Assembly: GCF_900141915.1 (NCBI RefSeq)
Contig: NZ_FQZG01000010.1
Coordinates: 1 to 64,000 of the forward strand
Direction: 5' to 3'
Length of the DNA: 64,000 nt
From: Tessaracoccus bendigoensis DSM 12906
GTDB lineage: Bacteria > Actinomycetota > Actinomycetes > Propionibacteriales > Propionibacteriaceae
Every line of letters starts with the position of its first letter. Position 1 is the stretch's first letter. The notes beneath the pieces were generated by a model. That model made no database searches. It was given only the letters and a program-made list of their open reading frames with translations, and was not told the origin of the DNA. Below, one piece after another: positions 8,073 to 14,430 of the stretch. The position numbers and the translations under genes were made by a program.

Positions 8073-9032
8073 CTAAACGACCCTGCTCAGCAGCGCCACG
8101 GCGTCGCGTTTGACGTACCCGAGCGCCTCGGTCAACTTCGACAGGCCGTAGCCGTCCGGGGTGTCGATCCCGATCCCGGCCTCGGTGCAACCACTGCCGC
8201 GCATGGCCAGGAGACACTTACCCAGGAGTGTGAGCGAGATTCCCCGACGGCGATAGTCGGGATGGACCCCGAAACGTTCGGTCCAACCACAACCCGGTTC
8301 GCCGTCGTCCTCAACGCTCATCGCATATCCGACGATCCGCTCCCCGTCGCGCGCCACGAACGACCAGTCCGCCCGAAACTCCGGTTCGCCAAGGTGTCCT
8401 TCCCACTCCGGGACATCGACATCCGAGCCACCGAGCGGCCGGAAGCACAGGTTGTGCAGCACCCGGACCTCTTCGGCATCGCTGTCGCAGAATGGTTCAA
8501 CCGCGATCCCGTCAGCGTCGGGGACCTTGATCTTGGTCGTCAGATCCCTGAACAGGTCGTAGTAGTAGCGCTCAGGCCGGAAACCGTGGGCTGCGGCGAC
8601 CCGTTCCAGACCGGGCCGACCGAGTTCGGCGTAGCAGCCCAGCCACATCGGGACGCCCGGATGCTTCGCGTCACGCCAGGCGATGGCCCTGGCCACCTGC
8701 CACTTCAGCATAGCCGTGCCGATCAGCATGTGACGATGGACGGGGTGCACCCCTCCCATCAGGTACAACCGGAGCGGATCGGTGCTAACCACCACACCGG
8801 AACTGAACGCAGACAGGGAGTTGTAGGCGTCCCAGCCGCCGACGGCAAGTCCCTCGGCCTGTTCGGATCCGCCCTCGAAAACGGCGGCGCTGAGCCCGGA
8901 CAGCACCGAATTGTCCAGCGCCTCCAGTTGCCCCCGGAAATGCTCCACCTCATCCGCATCGTCCGCGTTGAGGAATCGCCACCTTAGGTGGGGTTCCACA
9001 TATGCCTCCGCGGCGGGCTGGATCCGGCTCAC
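8073..9032 (-). CDS. Tandem GNAT-fold acetyltransferase
   Basis: A 319-residue protein with two GNAT-like halves. Each has the acetyl-CoA-loop pattern after a beta strand: GGVHPVHRHMLIGTAMLKW in the N-terminal half and FGVHPDYRRRGISLTLLGK in the C-terminal half. The second ends with a GNAT-typical LSKLTEALGYVKRDAVALL. Tandem GNAT enzymes include mycothiol synthase MshD, but the diagnostic MshD segments are not evident, so the substrate is left open. The start is a GTG in a GTGA overlap with the preceding PlsC-like gene; the frame remains open beyond it without a better start. It is the last gene of a tightly overlapped four-gene set (see findings). Confidence 0.85.
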   Translation of the reverse strand: MSRIQPAAEAYVEPHLRWRFLNADDADEVEHFRGQLEALDNSVLSGLSAAVFEGGSEQAEGLAVGGWDAYNSLSAFSSGVVVSTDPLRLYLMGGVHPVHRHMLIGTAMLKWQVARAIAWRDAKHPGVPMWLGCYAELGRPGLERVAAAHGFRPERYYYDLFRDLTTKIKVPDADGIAVEPFCDSDAEEVRVLHNLCFRPLGGSDVDVPEWEGHLGEPEFRADWSFVARDGERIVGYAMSVEDDGEPGCGWTERFGVHPDYRRRGISLTLLGKCLLAMRGSGCTEAGIGIDTPDGYGLSKLTEALGYVKRDAVALLSRVV

Positions 9033-9820
9033 CGCCAGATCCGAGCACGGGTGTCCGCCGGTGGGGCGGCCTGGTCCCAGAGCCTGCGCCACCTGGGCGC
9101 AGGCTCCGCCCCGTGAGGTGAAGGCGACCCGGTCCGCCGACGCTCCACCGTCCACCAGCTCAGTTCACCCTCATGCACCAACTGCTCGACGTTGCGCTGC
9201 AGCTCGGCTGTCGCGTCCTGCAGCCCCCTCCCGCGTGGATAGAGGGGGGCACCGAACCTGATCGACACCTTCGGCCGTGCCCGCAGCGGCAGCTTCAGCA
9301 GTTCCTTCAGCTTGAAGGTACCGACGAGCCCGACCGGGACGACCGCCACGTTATGTTGGCTGGCAAGGCCTGCCGCCACGTCGGAGAACTCCCCGACCTG
9401 CCGTCCAGCGGCTGGCTCGTCCGTGAAGACGATCACGTTGCGACCCCTGGCCAGCGCACGCGACAGCGCGATGTTCGTCGGACGGAGCTGTGAAGGCATC
9501 GCCATTCTGAGAAGCTGCAGGTCAAGCACCCCCTGCTCGTTCGCAGCGAGCACGAATGGGCGGCGCAGCCCGGTCAGGGAATCGTCTCCCACAAGCTCGA
9601 TGTCGAACCGCAGGGCCAGCAGGCGCAGCGTCAGGTGCCTTCCCGGCCGCTCAGCGCGGGGCCACAGTTGGCGGGCCGGAACCGGGTTCGGGGGCACTCC
9701 CCCCGGCCGACGCCGCTGCAGGGTTGCGCTCAGCGCGTCGAGGAGATCGTTCAGGAGGGTCAGCCTGGGACGTTTCTTCTTCTTGGTGCTCTGCGCCCAG
9801 GACGGGAGGTCCCTGCTCAT
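9029..9820 (-). CDS. PlsC-like acyltransferase-fold protein, catalytic His absent
   Basis: A 263-residue protein resembling 1-acylglycerol-3-phosphate acyltransferases (PlsC/LPLAT). Motif I is NHxxxxD in active enzymes; here it reads NEQGVLD, with Glu in place of the catalytic His. Motif III, usually FPEGTRS, reads FTDEPAAGR. Motif IV is recognisable as VAVVPVGLVG. The C-terminal 40 residues are Arg/Pro-rich. It may be non-catalytic, use different chemistry or be structural. It starts in an ATGA overlap with the LarA-like gene and ends in a GTGA overlap with the GNAT gene, so its synthesis is coupled to both. Confidence 0.75.
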   Translation of the reverse strand: MSRDLPSWAQSTKKKKRPRLTLLNDLLDALSATLQRRRPGGVPPNPVPARQLWPRAERPGRHLTLRLLALRFDIELVGDDSLTGLRRPFVLAANEQGVLDLQLLRMAMPSQLRPTNIALSRALARGRNVIVFTDEPAAGRQVGEFSDVAAGLASQHNVAVVPVGLVGTFKLKELLKLPLRARPKVSIRFGAPLYPRGRGLQDATAELQRNVEQLVHEGELSWWTVERRRTGSPSPHGAEPAPRWRRLWDQAAPPADTRARIWR

Positions 9821-11337
9821 CGGACGTCACCGAGGACAAGCCCCGGGCCCCGCAGCATCGTGATGCTGGGATGCATGCCTACTGTGCCGGAAGCGATCTC
9901 CAATGCGTCGGCATAGGTGGTGGCCGACCGGTGGCCGAGGAGGGCGGCGCACCGACGGTCGCCACCGACCCAGATGATCTCCGAGAACTGCTCGGCCGCC
10001 CTGGCCGTCTCATACCAGAGCTGGTAGACGCGCAGCGGATGGTCCGCGAAGTTCTTGCGGTAGAGGTCCAGGTACCACTCATCGTCCATCGCGCGTGCCT
10101 GGAAGCGGGCCGCGATTTCCCCGGCGTCGGTGGTCTCGGTCAGCACCTTGGCGAAGAAGTCCGCGGCGGCGGACTGGCGGCGGTTGGAGAACCGGTTGCG
10201 CAGCGGATGGAAGGCGATCAGCGCGCCACCCTCACGCGCGAGGGGCTTTGCCAGGTGGCTTCCTGCGCGCCTGACGAGCGCGTGATGGGCCACGTCGAGT
10301 GGTGAGCCGATCGAGTCGACGGCATCGACCGCGGGTCCCCACACGGATGTGACGAGGACATCGGCGGAGCCGTTCACCTCAACGGAGTTCGCGGCCTGCC
10401 ACACCCCGAGAGAGTCGGACAACGATGAGGCGTACCCGCCGCCCACCACGTCGATGACCGCGTAGTCGGCGCGAGGATTCCCGTTGACCAGTTGCGCCCC
10501 CTGCCTCGGCAGCGCCGCGATGATCTGGCGCGACCCGGCCAGCGCGAGCCGGTCGGTGAGCTTCCACTCCCATTCACGGGTCGCCAGGAAACGCAGGCTC
10601 CATGCGAGCAGCGGCTGGCCGAGGACGGCGAACAGCGCGAAAGGCTCGACGGCCCCACGGATCAGGTCGCTCACGCCCTCTGCGAACCCGGGGGCAGGGT
10701 CGAAGCCGAGTAGCCGGTCCAGCGTGGCCAGGTCGGTCAACCCGACCGCGAGCGGATCGTGTTCCGAGGCGTCGGCGCGCACGCCGATGACGACCACCAC
10801 ATCCGATTGTGCGACGCGCCGGTTCAGCAGCACCGGGAAGCCCTGCACCTCACCGATGCTGACGAGGTCGTCGCTGGTGACGTCGTGGCTGCTGATCAGG
10901 GAGTCCGGCAGGAAAGATGTCGCGACCCGGTCGCCGAGCGCCCTGCTGACCTGCTGGGTCGACCAACGTTGCTTCAGCCCGTTGGCGACGACCAGTTCCA
11001 CATCATCGACGCCCCTGCGGGCCGCGATCTCCAGGACCCGCTCGGTGAGTGCCCGGCGCGGATCGAAGTGGGGGCGAGGAAGGGGCGCGTCCTGATCGAT
11101 GATGACCAGGGTCAGTTTCATCCCCGGGCTGAGCTGCTCCGCCAGCGGCGCGCCACCGGTCGGGGCCCCCACCGCCGCCTCGATCAGCCCGACCGGATCT
11201 GAAGATTCTTCGGCATCGGCGGTGTAGACCACCTGGGTGCCGATGCCGAAGCGCTCAAGCCGAAGCTGGGCGCCGGACATCGTCAAGAGGTGTGGGGTCT
11301 TATCGTCGACCTCCAAGACGAACCCGGGACGAGGCAT
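9817..11337 (-). CDS. LarA-fold (DUF2088-like) protein, not an obvious lactate racemase
   Basis: A 506-residue protein resembling the nickel-dependent lactate racemase LarA family. Family-like segments are the N-terminal IIDQDAPLPRP, VDDVELVVANGLKQRW (LarA has a GTHR-type motif here), and SSHDVTSDDLVSIGEVQG followed by PVLLNRRVAQSDVVVVIG. The later GGAK-type segment, carrying the lysine that holds the nickel-pincer cofactor in LarA, is not recognisable; the region reads GVRADASEHDPLAVGL. A racemase role is therefore unlikely and the function is unknown. The ATG follows the reductase-HAD stop by 16 bases, and the stop overlaps the PlsC-like gene. Confidence 0.65.
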   Translation of the reverse strand: MPRPGFVLEVDDKTPHLLTMSGAQLRLERFGIGTQVVYTADAEESSDPVGLIEAAVGAPTGGAPLAEQLSPGMKLTLVIIDQDAPLPRPHFDPRRALTERVLEIAARRGVDDVELVVANGLKQRWSTQQVSRALGDRVATSFLPDSLISSHDVTSDDLVSIGEVQGFPVLLNRRVAQSDVVVVIGVRADASEHDPLAVGLTDLATLDRLLGFDPAPGFAEGVSDLIRGAVEPFALFAVLGQPLLAWSLRFLATREWEWKLTDRLALAGSRQIIAALPRQGAQLVNGNPRADYAVIDVVGGGYASSLSDSLGVWQAANSVEVNGSADVLVTSVWGPAVDAVDSIGSPLDVAHHALVRRAGSHLAKPLAREGGALIAFHPLRNRFSNRRQSAAADFFAKVLTETTDAGEIAARFQARAMDDEWYLDLYRKNFADHPLRVYQLWYETARAAEQFSEIIWVGGDRRCAALLGHRSATTYADALEIASGTVGMHPSITMLRGPGLVLGDVR

Positions 11338-11353
11338 CAGTGGTCCTTTCCGT

Positions 11354-13699
11354 TCACGACATGATTAGACGGGGCAGCGGAGACATTTCCGGCCACTCGA
11401 CGATTGACCAGCCCCTGGACTTGGCGGCGCGCATGAGCCCGATGTCCGGGCTCACGGCCACCGGGTTTCCCACCGCCCCCAGCATCGGCAGGTCCACGTG
11501 GCTGTCAGCATAGGCATACGACGCGGCAAGGTCGATGCCGTGCAACTGCGAGTAGTGGTTGAGCCAGGCGGAACGGGACTCGCCGACCATGGGGGGCCCA
11601 CTCAGGAACCCCGTACACACCCCATCCTCGTCGGTGGCGAGTTCGGCTGCGACGATCGTGTCGAACAGTCCTTCGAAGGGCCGGGTCAGTGGGCGGATCA
11701 CCCCCGTCATCAGGATCGTGGTGTGACCGGCGTTCCGGTGCTCCCTGATCCGGCGGATGGCTTCCGGGGACATGCGGTCGAGGATCAGCGGGGCGAGCTT
11801 CTCGTCGACGCATTCCTCGAGCGCGGCCAGATTTGCGCCGGCGTAGCGCCGGTAGATGGACCGGAGGAAGACACCACGGTCGCGTCTCTCCGCGGCGAGA
11901 TAGACGGGCAACCGCAGCGCCAGGCCTGCGACCTCACCTACCCGCTTCAGCGGGGAGAGTTCCGGCAGCCTGGCCCACAGGTAGGTCTCAACGACGTTGG
12001 TCGCCATGACGGTGCCGTCCAGGTCGAACGCGGCGAGTACGGTCCCCGGCTCGGCCTGTTTCAGGTCACGGAAGGTCGATGAGCGCGACTTGCGGCGTTT
12101 GCGGGCGGATTCCAAGCGACGCACCGGATCGGTGATCGCCGGGATGTGGACCTCTTCCATGTAGTGGGTCCACTCAAAACTGGCGGAGTCGAACCCGAAC
12201 CGTTCCCGATCGTCTTCGTGAAGGCTGTTGTGCAGCGCCAGGGTGCAGTCGTCGACGAAGTGGAGTTCCGACTGCAGGTACTCGCCGTAGAGGGAGAGGT
12301 ACTTGCCTAGGAAGTCCAGCTGCTTTCTGGCCTTGTCCAGTGAGGTGGCCAACTGCCGCGTCCGCTTTCCCCGCCACGCGAAGCTGAGCGCCAGGTTCCC
12401 GAGTTTGACCCCCTTGTCCGCGACCTTCAGGAACGTCTCCACCGGCTCCGCCCCCGGGAAATTCCAGGTGGCTGGCGCCGTCGACCCGAGGCCCGTGGCG
12501 TAGGGGTGTTGGCTGAAGTAGTTGCGGACGTGTTCGTAGATGCCGCGGAAGGTCAGCGGGTTCCTTGCGCCGGAGCTGCAGTGGTAGTACTCGGGTTTGC
12601 CGACCTCCGGCTGCGTGGCGCAGACCGCGACGATCGCGTTGACGACGAAGTCGCACGGGATGATGTCGATCACCGCGTCCGGCGAAGCCGGGAACTCGGG
12701 CAGTTGCCCGCGCCCGTAGGCGAGGATGATCGGGTCGGCCATCTTGAAGCCCTCGATCCAGCCCGGGTACGGGTCTTTCAGCGAAGACTCGACGATGGCG
12801 GGACGCACGATCGAGGCCCGGAAGTCGCCGCAGAGGTCGGCCACCACCCGTTCGGCCAAGGCCTTGGCGAAGGTGTACACGTCGGTCCAGCCGAGGGACC
12901 TAGCCCGTTCGGTGCCCGCCGCCACGAGTTCACGCTTTACCCACTCCAGGCGGCGGCGCTCGGTGTCTTCGGAGGTCGTCAGGTACCCCGCCTGCCGGTG
13001 CAGGGCCTCCGCCTCCTCACGCAACGCGGTCAGTTGCTCGGCGCTACGGGACCGTGCTTCGATGTGCTCCTTCATCGCCAACGCGGCACGGGTCTCGGCC
13101 TCGTAGTCGATGTTGTGGATGTGCCCGGCCTCCGGGATCGCACCGCGCCGCCGCCCTGCCGTGTAGGCGGTGGAAACGTGCAGATAGTGCGGGACCCGCA
13201 CCAGGTTGCCATCCTCGTCCGAACAGGCCTCCCTCAGCTTCGCCAGGAGCGCCTTGGTGCCCACGACGTTGGTCATGAACGCCTGGTCGATGGGTGGGTC
13301 GAACGAGACGTCACCTGCGCAGTGCAGGAGCACATCGAGGTCACGAGGAAGATCGGGCACCTGCGGCAGGTCGCCTTCGATCACGGCGACGCGGGTGCGC
13401 ATCAGCTCCTCAACACCCCCCGCGGCACGCACCACGTCCGCGAAGATCTTCTTCTTCAGTAGGCCCGCCACCCGCTGCTCAGCGGTCACCGAACCCTTGC
13501 GGCGCACGAGCACCGCCGTCACCGTGTCGGGGCATTGGGTGAGCACCTTCCAGAGGATCTGCTCGCCGATGAACCCGGTAACCCCGGTCATCACGATCTT
13601 CTTGCCTGCCAGCAGGTCGGCGATGCGCCCGTCGAGCAGGGGTGGCACGTGGGTGGTGGTCGAGCCGGTCCCGAACGTGCTGGCTGGGGCGTTGACCAT
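11354..13699 (-). CDS. Fatty-acyl reductase-like SDR fused to HAD-IB phosphatase
   Basis: A 781-residue fusion. Residues about 33-400 form a male-sterility/NAD-binding-4 type extended SDR: GVTGFIG at 39-45, STAYT at 176-180 and catalytic YTFAK at 275-279. This family includes acyl-CoA or acyl-carrier reductases. Residues about 553-765 form a HAD subfamily IB hydrolase: motif I DLDGT at 559-563, a motif II threonine near TGVIRPL, and motif III ADSHVDLPML from 731. The linker (about 410-540) is basic and helical. The start overlaps the hisA stop by one base (TGATG). An in-frame start 312 bases upstream was rejected because it would lie inside hisA. A lipid or isoprenoid substrate is plausible but unproven. 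Confidence 0.85.
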   Translation of the reverse strand: MVNAPASTFGTGSTTTHVPPLLDGRIADLLAGKKIVMTGVTGFIGEQILWKVLTQCPDTVTAVLVRRKGSVTAEQRVAGLLKKKIFADVVRAAGGVEELMRTRVAVIEGDLPQVPDLPRDLDVLLHCAGDVSFDPPIDQAFMTNVVGTKALLAKLREACSDEDGNLVRVPHYLHVSTAYTAGRRRGAIPEAGHIHNIDYEAETRAALAMKEHIEARSRSAEQLTALREEAEALHRQAGYLTTSEDTERRRLEWVKRELVAAGTERARSLGWTDVYTFAKALAERVVADLCGDFRASIVRPAIVESSLKDPYPGWIEGFKMADPIILAYGRGQLPEFPASPDAVIDIIPCDFVVNAIVAVCATQPEVGKPEYYHCSSGARNPLTFRGIYEHVRNYFSQHPYATGLGSTAPATWNFPGAEPVETFLKVADKGVKLGNLALSFAWRGKRTRQLATSLDKARKQLDFLGKYLSLYGEYLQSELHFVDDCTLALHNSLHEDDRERFGFDSASFEWTHYMEEVHIPAITDPVRRLESARKRRKSRSSTFRDLKQAEPGTVLAAFDLDGTVMATNVVETYLWARLPELSPLKRVGEVAGLALRLPVYLAAERRDRGVFLRSIYRRYAGANLAALEECVDEKLAPLILDRMSPEAIRRIREHRNAGHTTILMTGVIRPLTRPFEGLFDTIVAAELATDEDGVCTGFLSGPPMVGESRSAWLNHYSQLHGIDLAASYAYADSHVDLPMLGAVGNPVAVSPDIGLMRAAKSRGWSIVEWPEMSPLPRLIMS

Positions 13700-14430
13700 C
13701 AGAGCCGCCCCCCAGCCACCTGGAGCGCCTCCTCGATGGTGAACCTGCCGACGTAGAGCGCGGTGCCGATGATGGCTCCTTCGATCCCCTGGGGGACCAG
13801 CGCCCGGAGGTCGGCCAGGTCCTGCAACGTCGCGATGCCCCCTGAGGCAATGACGGGTCGGCCACTGCGCTCTGCCACGGCGGTGAGCAGGTCGACGTTG
13901 GGGCCGGTCAGCATGCCGTCCGAGTTGACGTCCGTGACGACGAAGCGCTCGCATCCAGCGGCCACCAGCCTGTCGAGGGTCTCGGTCCAGGCTCCACCCT
14001 CGGTCGTCCAACCTCGGGCGGCCAGGTTCTCACCGCGCACATCGAGCCCGACGGCGACCCGGTCGCCGTAGCGGGCGACGACCTCGTCGCACCAGTCGGG
14101 ATTTTCTAGGGCCGCCGTCCCGATGTTGATCCTCCTGGCACCCGTGGCGAGCGCCCGCTCCAGCGAGGATTCGTCGCGGATGCCGCCGGAGAGTTCGACC
14201 TGGATGTCGAGCCGACCGACGATGTCTCGGAGCAGTTCCGCGTTCGAGCCGCGGCCGAATGCGGCGTCGAGGTCCACGAGGTGGAGCCAGCTCGCGCCGC
14301 CGTCCTGCCAGCGCAGCGCCGCCTGTAGCGGGTCGCCGAACTCCTTCTGGGTTCCGGCCACCCCCTGAACCAGTTGGACGGCCTGCCCGCCCTGCACGTC
14401 AACCGCAGGCAACAATTGCAAAGTCTCCAC
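13699..14430 (-). CDS. priA: ProFAR isomerase HisA, probably bifunctional PriA
   Basis: A 243-residue TIM-barrel enzyme of histidine biosynthesis that isomerises ProFAR to PRFAR. It starts with [20 protein letters not shown] (catalytic Asp in AVDV). The conserved LSGGIRD and [14 protein letters not shown] (second catalytic Asp), the phosphate-binding [12 protein letters not shown] and the [17 protein letters not shown] end are present. In actinomycetes the orthologue PriA also does the TrpF step. No trpF is present in this window although trpE, C, B and A are, which fits PriA. It is the last his gene of the hisD-C-B-H-A run; hisF, the usual next gene, is replaced by the SDR-HAD fusion. Confidence 0.93.

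Follow-up and report, generated by a model that had tools for sequence, protein, structure and literature searches.

A probably remodelled four-gene unit downstream of hisA in Tessaracoccus bendigoensis and its probable connection to ether lipid synthesis

Which function can be assigned to a set of four tightly coupled genes, if two of the encoded proteins have altered active sites? This question is raised by a locus in the first 64,000 nucleotides of contig NZ_FQZG01000010.1 of Tessaracoccus bendigoensis DSM 12906; this whole stretch is referred to as the window. The minus strand carries, directly downstream of hisA, four overlapping or closely spaced genes with intact frames. They encode a fusion of a fatty-acyl reductase-like domain of the short-chain dehydrogenase/reductase (SDR) type with a HAD-IB phosphatase (P0001, SDR-HAD), a LarA-fold protein (P0002), a PlsC-fold protein (P0003) and a tandem GNAT (P0004). 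In an initial annotation the four were taken for one lipid or cell-envelope pathway combining acyl reduction, phosphate removal, acyl transfer and N-acetylation. The arrangement with 4-base overlaps or a 16-base gap was confirmed from the coordinates, and alignments verified the altered active sites of P0002 and P0003. The lipid pathway could be specified as ether lipid synthesis through an alkyl-dihydroxyacetone phosphate synthase (alkyl-DHAP synthase, AGPS), but not for all four families. We consider it probable that the unit is what remodelling has left of an operon serving the synthesis of ether-linked (alkyl-glycerol) lipids in actinobacteria, in which P0001 would provide the fatty alcohol and P0002 and P0003 would be dead relics.

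P0001 (781 amino acids, 11354..13699, minus strand like hisA and the other genes of the unit) is the best conserved member of the unit. It was assigned by Pfam, structure matches and motifs. The reductase domain NAD_binding_4 (residues 38-356, 12632..13588) was detected with an E value of 5.8e-44 and 150.6 bits (cut-off 20.1), the HAD domain (residues 556-740, 11480..12034) with 5.4e-32 and 112.2 bits for PF12710. TIGR01488 was matched with 47.2 bits (cut-off 45), TIGR01490 just under its cut-off (96.6 against 98.3 bits), and the C-terminal 'Sterile' domain reached 32.1 bits against a cut-off of 35.4. The solved structure nearest to the reductase part is the fatty acyl-CoA reductase 7eoz (7.4e-53), and the HAD part matches the solved HAD protein 3fvv (9.2e-14). 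Both halves keep their catalytic motifs, Ser-Tyr-Lys of the reductase (Ser and YxxxK) and DxDGT with four Asp of the HAD domain. The same residues are kept in the other complete SDR-HAD rows of the Propionibacteriaceae with three exceptions: the second HAD Asp is changed to Asn in two rows, and the Ser column was unreadable in one.

P0002 (506 amino acids, 9817..11337) was identified as a LarA-fold protein by Pfam (Lar_N, E 3.1e-14), the family model NF052592 (LarAH14/15/16), fold and alignment. With NF052592 it scored 318.7 bits, under the curated cut-off of 740. Its predicted structure (pLDDT 89) was superimposed on the solved nickel-pincer protein 9q3k with Z 34.9 over 435 aligned residues and a root mean square deviation of 2.8. 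The residues of the metal site, placed through an alignment of an intact relative with the solved LarASp (Streptococcus single-histidine LarA), are gone. At residue 122 (10972..10974) Lys replaces the catalytic His (His115 of LarASp), residue 194 (10756..10758) is Asp in place of the cofactor Lys of the intact relatives (Lys195 of LarASp), and Leu replaces the nickel His. The loop of the cofactor lysine is shortened, and the exact column of residue 194 depends on the alignment.

The loss of this site was found in two lineages. The cofactor Lys was present in all 77 readable distinct LarA rows outside of them, in none of the 79 readable rows of the Propionibacteriaceae and in 0/9 of genus g72 (genome groups are coded; f2 = Kribbella and g1 = Tessaracoccus/Arachnia are inferred from matching named loci). 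Site Lys and His occur in all 77 readable rows of the intact-operon relatives and Asn in 75; the counts omit 17 gapped 'other' rows, one further row that is presumably a second copy of the window protein, and one gapped row in each affected lineage. The lost positions differ freely from genus to genus. A shift of the cofactor lysine to a nearby position was rejected, as any Lys within about 10 residues was found in only 3 of 80 distinct rows of the Propionibacteriaceae, each time elsewhere. The alignments document a protein of the nickel-pincer family that has persisted in many genera of the Propionibacteriaceae after losing its cofactor site.

The cofactor genes were examined in 41 genomes (window genus and families f2-f4). 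For the window genome no match to LarC (TIGR00299) and no LarE (TIGR00268) over the cut-off was detected; LarB was not searched. All 12 genomes of f2-f4 with a LarA homologue have LarC and LarE over the cut-offs, and the four f3 genomes without LarA homologue have neither. The sample of the window genus comprises the window genome and 24 others, three of the 25 being less than 90% complete. A LarA-like protein was found in all 25 (as a fragment in G006, in pieces in G008 and G015), LarC over the cut-off in three and LarE in two; the remaining 22 gave no LarC match. At the level of the family, operon-type LarA was found at E 1e-49 or better in 50 of 147 genomes, and LarC was not found in 28 of these 50. 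Further LarA-family matches besides the site-less one were observed in G145, G151, G113, G166, G170 and G046, with LarC in all but G046.

For P0003 (263 amino acids, 9029..9820) no Pfam match was obtained even at E 1, and the assignment was made by alignment and fold. The predicted structure (pLDDT 71) matches the PlsC structure 5kym with Z 16.2 over 175 residues; structure prediction, named as a check in the initial annotation, thus returned the LarA fold for P0002 and the PlsC fold for P0003. P0003 reads NEQGVLD for NHxxHLD, residue 95 (9536..9538) being Glu where HxxxxD has the catalytic His, and FTDEP for the FPEGTR block. In addition, a stretch of about 36 residues is missing. HxxxxD is intact in 116/116 PlsC rows outside the Propionibacteriaceae (duplicates included). 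Within this family it is retained in some Microlunatus-like members and gone in the rows of Tessaracoccus and Arachnia; the T. caeni row, NHCGQLG, has kept the His and lost the Asp.

The intact operon of relatives shows the order SDR-HAD, zinc alcohol dehydrogenase of the medium-chain dehydrogenase/reductase type (MDR), intact LarA (LarAH14-16) and active PlsC. MDR, LarA and PlsC all stand beside SDR-HAD in 27/27 named loci outside the Propionibacteriaceae with enough flank (Kribbella, Nocardioides, Actinopolymorpha and others). MDR and PlsC were assigned by six-frame homology, several having been missed by a simple gene finder. The LarA proteins of one f2 (Kribbella-like) and one f4 genome pass NF052592 with 916 and 924 bits. 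Among 36 SDR-HAD loci of the Propionibacteriaceae with sufficient flank, LarA was found in 33 (31 by script and L038 and L060 with LarA in a long overlapping frame), PlsC in 31, GNAT in 27 and MDR, counted by script, in one. The GNAT was rejected as a core member of the operon, as it occurs in 27 of these 36 loci and in none of the 27 outside the family. Hence, the conserved linkage expected for all four families was found for SDR-HAD, LarA and PlsC far beyond the window genome, but none of the counted loci outside the Propionibacteriaceae has the GNAT next to the unit. In G008, G015 and L079 the unit is split into several frames, which may be sequencing errors.

The linkage was also examined in a sample of 394 genomes of the class, with cut-offs of 1e-60 for SDR-HAD, 1e-40 for LarA and 1e-80 for AGPS. 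SDR-HAD was found in 77 genomes, LarA in 56 and both in 54; G327 and G382 have LarA and no SDR-HAD at the cut-off. In 49 of the 54, a count into which the window genome (G000) was entered by hand, LarA comes immediately after SDR-HAD; in the other five the two genes are on separate contigs. Because of this co-occurrence and adjacency, the link between the two genes is not due to chance.

The connection to ether lipids is given by AGPS. Where a lineage has SDR-HAD and no LarA, the genes around SDR-HAD encode, among others, a match to AGPS, PlsC, an SDR and a small ferritin-like protein. The AGPS copy in locus L183 matches the solved structures 2uuu (4.8e-106) and 4bby (7.2e-82). AGPS was searched in the class sample and the Propionibacteriaceae, f2 (Kribbella-like) and f4 genomes not being included. 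The model separates two score classes, orthologues above 700 bits in 37/394 genomes and distant homologues with 424 bits and below; fragments were assigned to the orthologues and the low-scoring homologues were counted apart. In 21 of the 22 genomes of f23, f39, f46 and f49 with SDR-HAD and AGPS and no LarA, both genes lie within 5 kb, and in the remaining one (G384) they are on separate contigs. Four genomes with AGPS have no SDR-HAD at the cut-off (G356, G382, G425 and G465); all belong to g72 and consist of 560 to 880 contigs.

The window genome has an AGPS orthologue (G000:C88:1843-3495, 835 bits) within an SDR-PlsC-AGPS operon, in which the motifs of PlsC (NHSSHLD) and AGPS (SHHHGVG) are intact. 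The surroundings of AGPS were read in 28 distinct genomes of the Propionibacteriaceae, and 24 of these have SDR and PlsC close by, the SDR of L303 at a distance of about 3 kb. In genus g18 of this family, SDR-HAD is divergently adjacent to SDR-AGPS in 4/4 loci (L289, L290, L291 and L308). Operon-type LarA is accompanied by AGPS in 49 of the 50 family genomes that have it (as a fragment in G104; none in G042).

The chemical steps and the order of gain and loss, as we infer them, would be as follows. P0001 most likely reduces fatty-acyl thioesters to fatty alcohol for the formation of the ether bond, and its HAD domain would remove phosphate from an intermediate of the pathway. The separate SDR-PlsC-AGPS operon most likely forms the ether bond in the window genome. 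By analogy with the eukaryotic pathway, PlsC would acylate dihydroxyacetone phosphate, AGPS would put the alcohol in the place of the acyl chain, and the ketone would be reduced by the SDR. The ancestors of P0002 and P0003 would be a nickel-pincer LarA and a PlsC, which together with MDR would make up the operon without AGPS seen in other families. Where AGPS is present, the catalytic sites of LarA and PlsC would have been lost, but purifying selection would have maintained the proteins, probably because they serve P0001 as scaffolds or partners without catalysis. P0004 would be a later addition.

Two further observations concern the surroundings of SDR-HAD in relatives. In L185, PlsC and AGPS domains lie in one frame of 855 residues (L185:13253-15817, G277:C13), about 3.5 kb from SDR-HAD, possibly a natural fusion of two steps of ether lipid synthesis. 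The ferritin-like protein of about 264 residues was observed near SDR-HAD in nine loci (e.g. L184:4988-5812, L185:7596-8387, L188:7993-8802), in both AGPS and LarA settings (LarA-type: L184), and eight of the nine have a second, distant copy. It gives a weak match to FA_desaturase_2 (7.8e-5) and might desaturate ether lipids in an oxygen-dependent reaction.

The distribution of LarA and AGPS among the 77 SDR-HAD genomes shows a replacement pattern; for the table behind it and for the labels of the tree described below, genome lists were copied by hand from earlier searches. No AGPS orthologue was found in 44/77, and all 44 have LarA and MDR; the cofactor Lys of LarA is intact in 43 of them, in 42 complete sequences and the partial one of G473, and could not be read in G345. 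AGPS is present in the other 33, where LarA is absent in 23 and without the Lys in 10. Intact LarA together with AGPS was found in 0/77 genomes, and none lacks both. According to a tree of the SDR-HAD proteins (n=87), the switch between LarA and AGPS needs at least three changes, forced by the starred branches. The tree contains 75 of the 77 class genomes (the incomplete G315 and G489 were omitted) and 12 Propionibacteriaceae, two of them unlabelled; it was made by a quick method with no bootstrap, and gain and loss are not distinguishable in it.

The most informative case is genus g72 of family f21, which has retained the operon in the presence of AGPS. In 9/9 genomes LarA is without the Lys and MDR without the zinc ligands, the reductase and HAD motifs of SDR-HAD are intact (9/9), and so is HxxxxD of PlsC in 7/7 read. 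The other f21 genera in the sample (g55, g83 and g100), which are without AGPS, have intact sites where readable. Elsewhere the zinc ligands of MDR are complete in 105 loci (duplicates included), and in the one Propionibacteriaceae genome found with MDR (G178; three SHECCCC rows were taken as copies of it) the catalytic Cys is replaced by Ser. The AGPS of g72 stands alone, with no SDR of that kind beside it in three loci. A simple swap of MDR for this SDR was rejected, as g72 has lost the zinc ligands although no SDR neighbours its AGPS. Thus, LarA and MDR appear to go together. In L177, L179, L216, L217 and L218 of g72 the MDR is still recognisable, a second metal enzyme kept without its metal site in this operon.

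Tentatively, intact LarA (LarAH14-16) and MDR might do the work of alkyl-DHAP synthase, as a nickel-dependent ether lipid route in actinobacteria that is free of flavin adenine dinucleotide. The pincer could borrow a hydride from the C2 carbinol of 1-acyl glycerol phosphate made by PlsC, which would let the C1 acyl group be swapped for the fatty alcohol of SDR-HAD, and could then give the hydride back. The window would then hold the leftovers after AGPS took over. Such a replacement would explain the inactivity of LarAH14 on seven tested reactions, as given in the parts of PMC7583248 available to us. For the LarAH14-16 group the replacement pattern offers a specific role that can be tested, and it points to a new kind of ether bond formation.

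That AGPS and intact LarA exclude each other could also reflect lineage history, LarA and MDR belonging to another pathway (e.g. for sugar acids or polyols) that uses SDR-HAD differently. The small number of three switches is in line with this explanation, as is the low-scoring AGPS homologue, which occurs together with LarA in 30 of the 44 genomes that have no orthologue (neither class was found in 14); these homologues could in principle serve in those 30 genomes. Nevertheless, lineage history appears unlikely as the explanation, as the switches lie in separate clades, one of them within f21 (g72 versus g55, g83 and g100), the metal sites of LarA and MDR were lost in g72 with the motifs of SDR-HAD and PlsC intact, and none of the 77 genomes has intact LarA together with AGPS or is without both.

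The fate of the site-less genes was examined by the ratio of non-synonymous to synonymous substitutions (dN/dS) in de-duplicated genomes. For site-less LarA of the Propionibacteriaceae the median was 0.21 (30 pairs, range 0.09-0.44), for SDR-HAD in the same comparison 0.10 (30 pairs) and for PlsC of the family 0.20 (22 pairs). In intact operons the median was 0.12 for LarA (37 pairs) and 0.21 for SDR-HAD (34 pairs). Constraint on the dead LarA is evident but weaker than on its partner SDR-HAD, and this order is reversed in the intact operons. No internal stop was found in any operon-type LarA match of the 147-genome family sample (50 genomes, some partial).

These values bear on the explanation that P0002 and P0003 are decaying genes, kept for translational coupling in the his operon. 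The constraint relaxed relative to SDR-HAD would fit, as would the loss of both genes in L048, L053 and L078 and the broken copies in G008, G015 and L079, if these are not sequencing errors. Decay is nonetheless quite unlikely, as the operon-type LarA matches are free of stops and dN/dS stays below 0.45 in 30/30 pairs.

Furthermore, all four proteins could be active in one envelope lipid pathway, P0002 and P0003 having altered but working sites with new chemistry. The intact, tightly coupled frames and the purifying selection on both genes speak for activity. However, the lost residues are those for nickel binding, cofactor holding and acyl transfer, and their positions vary freely between genera, unlike those of a re-built active site. 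In addition, the LarC match is missing in 22 of the 25 genomes of the genus (three of the 25 below 90% completeness), and a PlsC whose motif is intact stands beside AGPS in the window genome. It is therefore very unlikely that four chemistries work in one pathway, as initially proposed. This reading was rejected for P0002 and P0003, because they have lost the residues for catalysis and cofactor binding and neither LarC nor LarE was found over the cut-off in the window genome. Synthesis of wax esters or hydrocarbons from fatty alcohols or aldehydes made by P0001 would agree with the match to a solved fatty acyl-CoA reductase and with the use of this reductase family in wax ester synthesis, but is highly improbable in view of the AGPS, PlsC and SDR recurring beside SDR-HAD, a positive link only, as no search for wax synthases was made.

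Several results weigh against the remodelled ether lipid operon. In 23 SDR-HAD rows from outside the Propionibacteriaceae, Gln, Glu or His takes the place of the second HAD Asp; thus, the phosphatase step may not be general, and in some lineages this half of the protein may have no activity. Slow decay would likewise give a site-less LarA less constrained relative to SDR-HAD than intact LarA, and three switches are few. LarC is still present in 22 of the 50 family genomes with site-less LarA. L048, L053 and L078 keep SDR-HAD and have dropped LarA and PlsC, hence a scaffold role is not essential there. In the window genome SDR-HAD and AGPS lie on separate contigs. The Propionibacteriales have orthologues of PlsA/PlsR, another ether route, according to the sections of PMC9702350 that were accessible, and a search of the open-access literature gave no report joining Propionibacteriaceae with plasmalogen or Tessaracoccus with dimethyl acetal. 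In L048 and L053 the GNAT was observed directly after SDR-HAD, the dead genes being dispensable in these loci.

Among known systems, P0002 shares its fold and operon place with the operon relatives of the LarAH14/15/16 group (NF052592). It differs by the missing cofactor Lys, nickel His and catalytic His and by the score below the cut-off. Frankia LarAH14 was inactive on the seven reactions mentioned above, and LarA homologues without certain catalytic residues might carry out another hydride reaction (PMC7583248, in the parts available). The closest solved relatives of P0002 by sequence and fold are the single-histidine proteins LarASp and LarABw, whose site residues are shared by the relatives with intact operon and lost in P0002; in the available text of PMC12611868 the authors place both in carbohydrate contexts. 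No paper linking LarA or lactate racemase to ether lipids or acyl reductase was found in the open-access literature.

The ether lipid pathway of eukaryotic type consists of fatty acyl-CoA reductase, GNPAT, AGPS and alkyl-DHAP reductase, and AGPS is also described for Myxococcus (PMC9702350, PMC11868695, both as far as accessible). Matching kinds of proteins were found in the window genome, namely a fatty acyl reductase-like protein, PlsC, AGPS and SDR. In contrast to this pathway, the reductase of the window is fused to HAD and lies in the his operon with the putative LarA and PlsC relics, and relatives have an AGPS-free version with LarA and MDR. Bacterial routes to the ether bond without AGPS are PlsA/PlsR, Ger and ElbD; unlike the AGPS-free operon, no LarA-type protein is described for them in the portions of the same two papers that we could consult.

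Regarding the layout of the locus, hisA/priA (13699..14430) is located immediately upstream of P0001, and its stop codon has one base in common with the ATG of P0001 (TGATG). It also adjoins SDR-HAD in the Kribbella loci and many Propionibacteriaceae loci. P0001 and P0002 are spaced by 16 bases, and P0002 and P0003 overlap by ATGA. Composition and a tRNA scan of the window gave nothing out of the ordinary. The host is best read as a Tessaracoccus/Arachnia-like member of the Propionibacteriaceae.

P0004, a GNAT by Pfam, comprises about 319 amino acids (8073..9032) from an inferred GTG start. The mechanically called open reading frame begins at 9155, and the in-frame GTG at 9032 gives a 4-base overlap with P0003 (GTGA). 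In 10 of 18 relatives the homologue next to the unit aligns only from residues 42-50 of the long form onwards, and in the other 8 from an earlier position; hence, the GTG start is likely, not certain. P0004 is best read as a GNAT addition specific to the Propionibacteriaceae. Another tandem GNAT resembling P0004, with 29% identity, was observed in the window genome (G000:C110:50277-51197).

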